Of a stretch of DNA of 32,080 nt, positions 56 to 31,957 are shown piece after piece (position 1 is the first letter of the stretch; every line of letters begins with the position of its first letter). The notes beneath the pieces were generated by a model. That model was not told the origin of the DNA. It saw nothing but the letters and a program-made list of their open reading frames with translations, and searched no databases. Source of the stretch: Sinomicrobium pectinilyticum (GTDB taxonomy: Bacteria; Bacteroidota; Bacteroidia; Flavobacteriales; Flavobacteriaceae); contig NZ_RJTM01000123.1 in the NCBI RefSeq assembly GCF_003725735.1, positions 1 through 32,080 of the forward strand. Reading direction: 5' to 3'. Position numbers and translations under genes: made by a program.

Positions 56-113
56 ACTTTTGGAATGAGAGTTATTTGGTTATTAGGCAGGATGCTAGAA
101 AAAGGCATATAAA

Positions 114-320
114 AAAAGGCTCCTCCCTTGTGATGAAGGGAGGTACCCGAGCGCAGCTACGGGGGGAGGGTTTTGAAATCCCAAATCATAGGGATAACCC
201 CAAACGTTAAGGCAAATACGCTAAAGTTCGGGCTTGTCAAACTCCCCGTCCCGCAAAGCGGTCCACCCTTCTTCTCCCGATTGTCCCGATGTGTATCGGG
301 ATCGGGATGAAGAGGGAGCC
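114..320 (+). repeat. structured intergenic repeat, copy A
   Basis: First of five copies (A-E) of a roughly 0.2-kb intergenic repeat. The order of parts is: a 5' hairpin (CTCCTCCC.. / ..GGGAGG), a CCCGAGCG.AGCTACGGGG mini-hairpin, a GGGAGGGTTTTGAAATCCC segment, a less conserved centre, CTCCCCGTCCCGCAAAGCGG, and a terminal hairpin CCCTTCTTC / GAAGAGGG. In this copy the loop of the terminal hairpin has been replaced by a nested TCCCGAT/ATCGGGA palindrome (275-307). Stop codons and the fold pattern argue against a coding role. Confidence 0.85.
275..307. repeat. nested TCCCGAT/ATCGGGA palindromes inside the loop of repeat A
   Basis: The inner unit is TCCCGATGTGTATCGGGA (284-301; 7-bp arms, 4-nt loop). 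It sits inside a second, outer pair TCCCGA (275-280) / TCGGGA (302-307). The whole insert lies between CTTC (271-274) and TGAAG (308-312), exactly where repeat B has only ATC. A related 18-bp unit occurs at 31919-31936 inside a tRNA remnant. Confidence 0.8.
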
Positions 321-366
321 CGGTTGGATTATTATTGAGAGGCGAGTGCTATAGGAAATAAGATAC

Positions 367-732
367 ATGAAAAAAACGCCAATACATAATCTTAAACAAC
401 TCCGAGAATACCGGACCGAACTGCGTAAAAATATGACTCCCGCAGAAGCTTTTCTATGGAAACATATAAAAGCGAGGAAAATCCATGGATATCGTTTTAC
501 ACGTCAGCATAGTATAGGTAATTATATAGTAGATTTTTATTGTGCTAAGGCATGTCTTATTATCGAACTGGACGGAGAAGTTCACAACAATCCACAAGCG
601 GAAGAATACGATTTTATCCGAACAAAAGCATTGAATAAAAAAGGATATACCGTACTTCGTTTTGAAAACAAAATTGTCTTTGAGAACCTTGATGCTGTGT
701 TACAGGAAATCAAAGAACATTTAAAAGAATAG
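367..732 (+). CDS. DUF559 endonuclease-domain protein (Vsr-like fold)
   Basis: This 121-residue protein matches the small DUF559 / endonuclease-domain family, which shares the PD-(D/E)xK-type fold of Vsr mismatch endonucleases. Visible hallmarks are the N-terminal LRKNMTPAEAFLWKHIKAR (about 19-37), GYRFTRQHSIGNYIVDFYC (41-59) with the candidate metal-binding Asp56, and LIIELDGEVH (64-73) with Glu67, Asp69 and His73. It ends with a predicted helix (LDAVLQEIKEHLKE). The length is usual for the family and no signal peptide is seen. The gene stands alone between repeat copies A and B, with no partner methylase or other operon member. Family assignment is firm. The biochemical role of DUF559 proteins is poorly known, and any link with the repeats is inference. 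Confidence 0.85.
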   Translation: MKKTPIHNLKQLREYRTELRKNMTPAEAFLWKHIKARKIHGYRFTRQHSIGNYIVDFYCAKACLIIELDGEVHNNPQAEEYDFIRTKALNKKGYTVLRFENKIVFENLDAVLQEIKEHLKE

Positions 733-760: not shown

Positions 761-960
761 AAAAGGCTCCTCCCTTTAGAAAAAGGCGTTGTGCTGAGCG
801 AAGTCGAAGTAGAGGTATCCGAGCGTAGCAACGGGGGGAGGGTTTGAAATCCCGAACCATAGGATAAGCACATATGTTTAGGTCTATACGCTAAGGTTCA
901 GGCTTGTCAAAACTCCCCGTCCCGCACAGCGGTCCACCCCTCTTCATCTGAAGAGGGGAG
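761..960 (+). repeat. structured intergenic repeat, copy B
   Basis: Same family as copy A, with the intact terminal hairpin CCCCTCTTCA-TC-TGAAGAGGGG (937-958; 10-bp perfect stem) and CCGTCCCGCACAGCGG. Its 5' hairpin is split by a 25-nt foreign insert at 787-811. It is followed by a 40-nt spacer and copy C, an arrangement repeated at copies D-E. Confidence 0.85.
787..811. repeat. 25-nt CTGAGCGAAGTCGAAG repeat inserted in repeat B
   Basis: Removing these 25 nt restores AAAAAGG + GAGGTATCC, which matches the uninterrupted AAAAAGGGAGGTACCC of copy E with one substitution. The insertion is therefore clean: no target loss and no target-site duplication. The core CTGAGCGAAGTCGAAG is a short repeat I recall as widespread between genes in Bacteroidota; that recall cannot be tested here. 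Confidence 0.7.
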
Positions 961-21403: not shown

Positions 21404-21584
21404 TTATCTTTTTTTAACAGGTTATCCTGTGTTTCAGATCATATCATAAAAGATTTTTTGGAAATGCATATGTAACTATACGGATCTTCCTCCGTGCCAT
21501 GCTTTAGGTAATGTCATTTAGTTAGTGTTATGGTACTCTGAAAAGAGGTATAGGAGGAATGTTCTATATTTTATTAGAAAAACC

Positions 21585-21760
21585 AAAAGGCTCCTCCCTT
21601 TAGAAAAAGGGAGGTCCCCGAGCGTAGCTACGGGGGGAGGGTTTGACATCCCGGACCATTGGTATAACCGCAAACACTTGTGTATATATGCTAAGGCTTG
21701 CGCTGGTCAAAACTCCCCGTCCCGCAAAGCGGTCCACCCCTCTTCATCACAAGAGGGGAG
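21585..21760 (+). repeat. structured intergenic repeat, copy D
   Basis: The cleanest copy. 5' hairpin CCTCCCTTT / AAAGGGAGG, CCCCGAGCGTAGCTACGGGG, GGGAGGGTTTGACATCCCGG, CTCCCCGTCCCGCAAAGCGG, and the terminal hairpin CCCCTCTT / AAGAGGGG. Same orientation as copies A-C, about 20.8 kb from copy B. Confidence 0.85.
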
Positions 21761-21800
21761 TTCTGTGGAGTTATAATGTGGTACAGTAAGAAGAAAAGAT

Positions 21801-21940
21801 AAAAAGCTCCTCCCTTTAGAAAAAGGGAGGTACCCGAGCGTAGCTACGGGGGGGTGAAATCCCGGATCATTGTTTTAACCGCAAACGTTCGTGTATATGC
21901 GCTAAAGTTCCGACTGGTGAAAGCCTTTTGGCCCGCAAAA
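21801..21940 (+). repeat. structured intergenic repeat, copy E (3'-truncated)
   Basis: 5' hairpin and CCCGAGCGTAGCTACGGG are intact; the copy then decays and ends near GCCCGCAAAA without the terminal hairpin. The 40-nt spacer D-E (21761-21800) matches the B-C spacer (961-1000) at 36 of 40 positions by hand count, so B-C and D-E are two copies of one tandem unit. Confidence 0.8.
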
Positions 21941-22021
21941 TAGAAAGGACGATATGTTATGCTGAACACTGACAAAATGATAGAAGGGGAAAATTATAGC
22001 ATTCCCGGAAGAATTTAATTC

Positions 22022-30124: not shown

Positions 30125-30165
30125 TCCCGAAAGCCTGCCTGGCCGGCAAAGGCGGGCTTTCGGGA
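30125..30165. repeat. nested GC-rich palindrome
   Basis: Outer arms TCCCGAAAGCC (30125-30135) and GGCTTTCGGGA (30155-30165) pair perfectly over 11 bp. The interior (30136-30154) is itself hairpin-like (TGCC..GGCG around TGGCCGGCAAA). It lies between divergent genes, so it is not a terminator for either. The outer end TCCCGA/TCGGGA resembles the 18-bp palindromes at 284-301 and 31919-31936. Confidence 0.65.
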
Positions 30166-31904: not shown

Positions 31905-31957
31905 TCCTCCTTAGCTCATCCCGATAGTGATCGGGAGGTTAGAGCCCAAGAGAAGTG
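31905..31957 (+). pseudogene. decayed tRNA-Asn copy with a palindrome in its D-loop and no anticodon arm
   Basis: TCCTCCTTAGCTCA (31905-31918) equals the 5' end of the intact tRNA-Asn downstream. TCCCGATAGTGATCGGGA (31919-31936) then replaces GTT of the D-loop, and GGTTAGAGC (31937-31945) equals the rest of the D-arm. What follows, CCAAG, is what the T-stem of the intact gene requires, and AGAAGTG is a decayed acceptor 3' strand. The anticodon arm is missing, consistent with deletion between the two GAGC words in the D-arm and T-loop. The upstream flank AAATAATA..CTTTCC is also shared with the intact gene. The 3' end of the intact gene is outside the window and was inferred from base pairing. 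Confidence 0.6.

Follow-up and report, generated by a model that had tools for sequence, protein, structure and literature searches.

Scattered copies of an 18-letter palindrome, TCCCGAT-N4-ATCGGGA, appear, on the basis of comparative sequence analysis, to have been copied into some of the hairpin loops of marine flavobacteria. We are inclined to regard these sequences as very short, non-autonomous mobile palindromes of the Flavobacteriaceae, each new copy of which usually replaces 3 bp, and sometimes 4-5 bp, of its target. The family itself, the empty counterparts of its members, the exchange of 18 bp for 3, the nesting of the palindrome in its own kind, and its recurrence in loops of tRNA-like sequences, repeat hairpins and RNase P RNA are all directly observed.

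The window, that is, the whole stretch of 32,080 nucleotides of Sinomicrobium pectinilyticum DNA analyzed here, contains two copies (284-301 and 31919-31936); the number of matches with at most 2 mismatches is also 2, compared with a mean of 0.07 in shuffled sequences, none of 100 of which reached 2. The genome that includes the window (G000) harbors 57 exact copies of TCCCGATN4ATCGGGA, which amount to approximately 0.02% of the sequence (57 x 18 of 5.65 Mb), and none of the reversed pattern used as a control; for the looser pattern TCCCGAN6TCGGGA, the corresponding counts are 66 and 1. At least one copy was detected in 176 of 397 Flavobacteriaceae genomes, with a maximum of 90, and the six genomes of the genus Sinomicrobium carry 57, 12, 1, 70, 0 and 20 copies, respectively. 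The RseP (rseP) identity between the window genome and the named Sinomicrobium relatives is 78 to 87%, and 61% or less for the next genera. The most common center of the palindrome is AGCT (29 of 84 de-duplicated non-nested sites). By raw count, at least 120 stretches in viral contigs match as well. In the open-licence literature, we found no published account of the 18-mer sequence and, among the matches listed, no palindrome of bacteria for which a rule of loop placement is given.

Several palindromes of this kind can be discerned in the window (Table 1). The initial annotation described an 18-bp palindrome enclosed in a second TCCCGA/TCGGGA pair within the hairpin loop of repeat A, where repeat B has only ATC, and a third palindrome with TCCCGA/TCGGGA ends that is itself nested; both descriptions are borne out, the third palindrome consisting of TCCCGAAAG, 23 nt and CTTTCGGGA. 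The 33-nt nested block in repeat A is flanked, within the terminal hairpin, by CTTC on one side and TGAAG on the other, and its inner 18-mer substitutes for three bases of the outer one, the un-nested relatives being CTTCTCCCGATAG-ACA-TCGGGATGAAGAT and CTTCTCCCGATAA-TCA-TCGGGATGAAGGG. Given that 33 - 3 = 30 = 2 x (18 - 3), the block corresponds to two successive steps of +15, and so reads as two consecutive insertions, each of which adds 18 bp and removes 3 bp. In the place of the palindrome at 30125-30165, other copies of the same repeat hold TCCCGAAAGCTTTCGGGA or plain GAT. The R elements (105-1160 and 21576-21950) contain several hairpins and lie around the DUF559 gene, with which they may form a separate mobile unit.

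Table 1. Palindromes and associated features of the window
Feature	Position	Strand	Basis or remark
R element, repeat A	105..327	+	
Terminal hairpin of repeat A, host of the nested block	267..316	+	stem 267-274 with 309-316; RNA fold of the joined flanks (L056)
Nested block: remnant of the outer 18-mer TCCCGATTG (275-283), inner 18-mer, TCGGGA (302-307)	275..307	.	
Inner 18-bp palindrome TCCCGATGTGTATCGGGA	284..301	.	window sequence, pattern counts
DUF559 (PF04480) ORF, 121 aa, flanked by two R elements	367..732	+	
ATC, empty loop of repeat B at the equivalent place	946..948	+	
Additional R element copies	near 752-975, 1006-1160, 21576-21790, 21792-21950		boundaries approximate
Sister-type palindrome TCCCGAAAG / CTTTCGGGA, interrupted at its exact center by 23 nt from another palindrome	30125..30165	.	
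Pseudo-tRNA-Asn: acceptor 5' strand, palindrome-bearing D-arm, then CCAAGAGAAG	31905..31955, end approximate	+	fuller relative L222
18-bp palindrome in place of GTT in the D-loop of the pseudo-tRNA-Asn	31919..31936	+	
tRNA-Asn(GTT), intact copy, start at ~32021, runs off the contig end	32021..32080	+	RNA scan (L057 3022-3081)

The initial annotation also proposed a comparison of orthologous sites with and without the palindrome, and such empty sites are indeed present. When 13 flanking bases on each side were searched in the collected sequences with at most 2 mismatches per side and the gap of the best match was recorded, 50 of the 159 contexts tried yielded an empty counterpart and 109 did not. 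The replaced length was 3 bp in 30 of these 50 contexts, 5 in 8, 12 in 4, 9 in 3, 4 in 2, 10 in 2 and 6 in 1; with one self-match (L031) dropped, 29 of 49 usable contexts show a 3-bp replacement. A number of the longer gaps reflect the comparison of one palindrome variant with another. By a count made by eye, the 30 contexts comprise 16 nested sites, which were scored against un-nested palindromes in similar surroundings, 6 repeat R hairpins, 3 tRNA sites, 4 others and the self-match. Copies that lie in repeat families may have been carried along as the repeat multiplied, so these 30 swaps do not represent 30 independent events.

The exchange is particularly clear in the R hairpin CTCCCTTC-loop-GAAGGGAG, which in five genomes of the genus has a 4-nt loop in 45 of 54 places and the 18-mer instead of 3 of the 4 loop bases in 7, the remaining 2 places containing, respectively, a 24-base insert and a different palindrome. 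The same kind of swap is seen where no hairpin is evident at the junction, namely, in AACTCCA-AAA-CTCATCAACTCC, in the folds of L004 and L009, and in the S element GATTTTCCTC-GAT-TCACCC, which is empty in two loci and filled with the 18-mer in one repeat copy. The replacement of approximately 3 bp by 18 bp is a more constant feature than the placement in loops. In another genome (G340; L231, L234), the 18-mer lies within CTG...TTGTTTCAG, and the putative empty form, CTGAACTTGTTTCAG, comes from a different genome (L088), with 3 bases replaced. We also considered stem grafting, whereby the three replaced bases are kept as the center of the new palindrome; this fits some of the R-element and tRNA copies, but it was set aside upon inspection by eye because most of the D-loop copies are centered on AGCT, which is also the most common center of the de-duplicated non-nested sites, and other sites do not fit.

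Nesting, defined as the presence of both outer arms around an inner 18-mer with one mismatch permitted per arm, was assessed in 46 distinct contexts of the 57 copies in the window genome, the first 22 of the 70 copies in G003, and 68 contexts from ten genomes of other genera. Nested copies account for 14/46 and 9/22 contexts in the two Sinomicrobium genomes, that is, 23/68 together, and for 0/68 contexts in the ten genomes of other genera, so that nesting was seen in Sinomicrobium only. The first two bases of the inner and outer centers are unlike in 11 of 18 parsable nested sites, as transfer from elsewhere would give. Equal centers are found in the other 7 of 18, compared with 3.9 expected (111 of 5000 permutations were as high), an excess which suggests that some of the nesting may be local duplication. 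The array TCCCGATCCCGATCCCGATAATTATCGGGATCGGGATCGGGA (L014) is an example of nesting.

A second type of target is tRNA. ARAGORN calls no tRNA within the window, and yet the second palindrome of the window had been assigned to a tRNA D-loop in which it replaces three bases; this assignment stands with one correction, the bases being GTT and the host a pseudo-tRNA-Asn that has lost the anticodon arm and half of the T-arm, apparently by deletion between two GAGC words. The corresponding pattern, AGCTCA-18-mer-GG, is present at 18 loci, which are distributed over 15 of 397 genomes and 14 of 237 genera and lie in copies of tRNA-Asn (13 loci, of which L212, L222 and L223 were put to Asn by eye), tRNA-Trp (3), tRNA-Met (1) and tRNA-His (1). 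An intact tRNA of the same kind lies downstream in 15 of the 18, the exceptions being L212 and L223 (the window), where the contig ends, and L222, which is followed by another tRNA. A search with free offset, performed in 65 genomes that were picked by copy number save for two (G153, G162) added after fixed-position pattern matches, produced 24 matches, of which 18 replace GTT, 3 replace AGTT, 1 is nested and 2 are outside tRNA-like sequence; thus, beyond the 18 exact GTT cases, 17 of which were already known from the fixed-position pattern, there are 4 variants in the same D-loop.

Many of these loci share a further gene. By eye, a GIY-YIG-like ORF can be recognized between the pseudo-tRNA and the intact tRNA at 9 of the 13 Asn loci, two of the nine being in tandem on one contig and one having its ORF split over two frames; two of the proteins encoded beside tRNA-Asn copies were confirmed as PF01541. 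At the five Met, Trp and His loci, inspection by eye of up to four ORFs listed per locus revealed no such ORF. In G003, a tRNA-Asn copy of nearly full length, whose D-loop holds the 18-mer, is followed by a GIY-YIG gene and an intact tRNA-Asn. In the tRNA-Phe copies of G329 and G209, the D-loop carries the palindrome, and a variant of it is found at the anticodon loop. In G015, a unit made up of a tRNA-Met, a GIY-YIG gene and a 3' half tRNA, the last bearing the palindrome in its anticodon loop, is present twice in tandem. Other tRNA loops (anticodon, variable and T; by eye) are hit in L291 and L292, with variant palindromes, and in L293, L149 and L272.

Among the 136 contexts examined for nesting, which were not chosen for tRNA, 6 match one of 36 tRNAs from the loci, with positions, judged by eye, in the D-loop (L057, from the window, and L251), in the T-loop (L272) or just past the tRNA (L248, L266), and one doubtful (L014); L238 looks tRNA-like and was not flagged in the matching. 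Another 25 contexts, some of them picked as resembling tRNA arrays, added 6 matches, namely, D-loops in L299, L304 and L310, and replacement of the whole anticodon arm in L299 and in two contexts of the L298 array. None of the 12 tRNA-matching contexts has the palindrome in the acceptor stem.

Several additional arrangements were noted around tRNA genes. Truncated or near-full pseudo-tRNAs adjoin an intact tRNA of the same kind at L209-L226, L141, L157, L289 and L293; at many loci, a small GIY-YIG gene is found between the two, and the unit is in tandem in G015 and G319. In L290, tRNA-Trp is preceded by a tandem pair of 48-bp mini-tRNA-Trp units, which consist of the acceptor strand, a capped D-arm and ACCACAAAA. 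L298, from G328, contains five 18-mers at a spacing of 355 bp, the flagged contexts being tRNA-Arg-like with TCCCGATTTTAATCGGGA for the anticodon arm. In Sinomicrobium N-1-3-6 (L148, 3989 and 4221), tRNA-Asn copies contain a sequence of the CCTGCCGGCAGGCAGG type in their D-loop and TCCCGACTTTTCGTCGGGA in place of the anticodon arm; these belong to a different palindrome family that occupies comparable positions.

An RNA scan of 15 loci gave hits above threshold for RNase P RNA, two cobalamin riboswitches and two tRNAs. In the RNase P RNA gene, rnpB, the 5' helix, which we take to be P3, carries the 18-mer in the window genome, a 4-nt loop in G002 and G004, and a decayed palindrome in G003; a pattern search found the 18-mer at this site in two of the above 65 genomes. 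A cobalamin riboswitch has a nested copy. The variable helices of rnpB in G011 (L095) and G024 (L107) contain other palindrome-like sequences, e.g. CTGAAATAAATTCAG and TAAGTTCAGGA.

The broader claim of the initial annotation, that the palindrome lands in hairpin loops, is upheld in part. Copies were folded without the 18-mer, and a junction was assigned to a loop when it fell in a predicted hairpin loop with a stem of at least 4 at a probability above 0.5 in sampled folds; the controls were randomly re-paired flanks and random places, and the Mann-Whitney p values refer to the loop probabilities rather than to the counts. De-duplicated non-nested sites are in loops in 21 of 67 cases, compared with 62/268 for re-paired flanks (p 0.003) and 76/398 for random places (p 0.008). 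When repeats are retained, the respective fractions are 29/100, 83/400 (p 0.006) and 123/593, the last difference not being significant (p 0.08). Outside Sinomicrobium, 19/48 sites are in loops (controls 41/192 and 68/282), whereas within this genus, there is no loop excess (4/19; controls 21/76 and 19/114). A stricter test that requires at least 6 consecutive pairs no more than 4 nt from the junction retained 4 of the 67 de-duplicated non-nested sites, compared with 35/2888 random places, with 6 of 2000 flank re-pairings as high, and showed no excess within the genus (1/15 and 0/9); this test is too strict for larger loops, hence our use of sampled folds. Landing in loops is real and specific for the palindrome's own loops, R hairpins, tRNA loops and the 5' helix of RNase P RNA; outside these targets, the excess is modest, and non-nested Sinomicrobium sites are at the control level. 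Loops are thus preferred, and strongly so at certain special targets, but they are not obligatory.

Such a preference could, in principle, result from survivorship: if insertion were random, copies would persist where they are least harmful, i.e. in the loops of structured RNAs. This possibility deserves serious attention even if we do not favor it, given that 46 of the 67 de-duplicated non-nested sites are outside predicted loops and that the copies in rnpB and in the cobalamin riboswitch fit. However, a pseudo-tRNA with an intact tRNA next to it should be tolerant of insertion at any position, and yet the same D-loop position is occupied in 14 genera according to the pattern that specifies it, and recurs in the search that left the offset free; moreover, nesting at the palindrome's own center in a third of the Sinomicrobium contexts is hard to obtain from survival alone. 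Under another, improbable scenario, the palindrome is not inserted but grown, by template switching or slippage that lengthens the arms of existing hairpins. Nested arrays such as that of L014 and the small excess of equal inner and outer centers are compatible with such local mutation, but the same 18-mer recurs in contexts as unlike one another as tRNA, the R and S elements and rnpB, with none of it in the empty forms, and since several empty counterparts lack any TCCCGA or TCGGGA word, local mutation is weak as a full account.

The initial annotation named REP/RAYT or IS200-like systems as the kind of machinery that might be involved, and movement of a REP-like element by a Y1 transposase (RAYT or IS200/IS605) is indeed suggested by the palindrome being short, dispersed and non-autonomous, and by the correlation of Y1 matches with copy number (rho 0.49, or 0.24 after genome size, in 60 genomes with kinship uncorrected). 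Nevertheless, we find this agency quite improbable. PF01797 (Y1 transposase, E <= 0.001) has no match in 6 of 20 copy-bearing genomes, several of which are drafts where a gene could be missed, and the correlation in 31 family genomes outside the genus is weaker (rho 0.30, p 0.10). There is no GTAG or CGTC tag, or any other fixed tetranucleotide, beside the palindrome: across the 168 flanks of 84 de-duplicated non-nested sites, no bases are fixed at -1 to -6 and only weak preferences are apparent (T is rare at -1, 6/168, and a pyrimidine is common at -3, 129/168). Finally, the loss of approximately 3 bp at the target is unlike the behavior of IS200/IS605. A selected function not involving mobility, such as a recurrently arising terminator or protein-binding site, is brought to mind by two copies just past tRNA-Asp genes (L248 and L266, by eye) but is very unlikely, considering that tRNA-like D-loops, rnpB, the riboswitch and self-nests are not terminator positions and that copy number is highly patchy within one genus.

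We therefore return to the mobile palindrome. In the mechanism that we envisage, a copy of TCCCGAT-N4-ATCGGGA would be placed at a new site, usually in exchange for 3 bp, by an agent acting in trans, and loops would be favored if the machinery cuts or joins a single-stranded loop, either in a DNA hairpin formed on a single strand or in RNA. The likeliest agents would be structure-cutting endonucleases, with subsequent repair joining in the hairpin, and the small GIY-YIG and DUF559 enzymes appear to be the best-placed candidates: a DUF559 ORF adjoins a window copy, and GIY-YIG genes are beside some of the tRNA copies. In 60 genomes, with kinship uncorrected, copy number correlates with the DUF559 count (rho 0.69; 0.57 after genome size) and the GIY-YIG count (0.59; 0.31 after genome size), as well as with genome size as such (0.57), so these two counts track copy number somewhat better than Y1 does, which, kinship being uncorrected, is a hint only. 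A more specific and rather doubtful version, loop capping, would have GIY-YIG/DUF559-type endonucleases cut the loops of tRNA genes, repeat hairpins and the palindrome itself, after which repair would seal the break with a free 18-base hairpin whose stem the enzyme can no longer open. If that were the case, each palindrome would be the scar of a process driven by endonucleases and would, at the same time, mark its site as immune; the unit would owe its spread to the transfer of hairpins and not to a transposase.

How palindromes that are only tens of bases long and devoid of genes are disseminated is an old question that extends from the GC clusters of yeast mitochondria to Rickettsia. The palindrome described here adds a case from bacteria in which empty sites exist, the exchange follows a rule that can be counted (usually 18 bp gained and 3 bp lost), and the targets, tRNA foremost, have a known fold, so that whether the machinery sees a loop becomes testable. 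It would also explain odd tRNA fragments and extra stems in the RNase P RNA of flavobacteria.

Among the known systems, IS200/IS605 elements insert beside a fixed target without loss of bases, unlike the 18-mer, with its 3-bp replacement in most usable contexts (29/49). For elements linked to homing endonucleases, the mark would be an endonuclease gene at the inserted site, and here the picture is divided, with a GIY-YIG-like ORF at 9 of 13 tRNA-Asn loci, none among the listed ORFs of the five Met, Trp and His loci, and a DUF559 ORF next to a window copy. The short tandem repeats in cyanobacterial rnpB are tandem heptamers in a peripheral helix; in both cases, such a helix of RNase P RNA accommodates repeats, and the difference is that the 18-mer is a palindrome. 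The palindromic elements of Rickettsia are much longer and are known for in-frame insertion in proteins, and it is this description, not sequence, that sets the 18-mer apart from them; the two have in common the dispersal of palindromes across a bacterial genome, also within genes. The Rickettsia elements are mentioned in PMC3733652. REP/BIME sequences with RAYT (PMC3733652, PMC2817692) are likewise short, dispersed, non-autonomous palindromes; the 18-mer differs from them by having neither the GTAG/CGTC tag nor a consistent Y1 gene, and by loop landing at some targets. The nearest in behavior, by analogy, seem to be the mobile hairpin elements of mitochondria, namely, the repetitive hairpin elements of sponges (PMC2800124), the GC clusters of yeast (PMC4478555), the palindromes of Fusarium (PMC7218506) and, as cited in these papers, the double-hairpin elements of Allomyces. 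Like elements of the mitochondrial type, the 18-mer is a dispersed short hairpin that is optional among close relatives. The shared features further include the very small size, the presence of some copies in rRNA genes, loops that are more variable than stems, and the merging of units. The 18-mer is distinct in that it resides in a bacterial chromosome and that its own loop, like the loops of tRNAs, is a recurrent landing site; and whereas the yeast GC clusters are described as having short flanking repeats that resemble a target duplication, the 18-mer, at sites with an empty counterpart, takes the place of approximately 3 bp and leaves no duplication.
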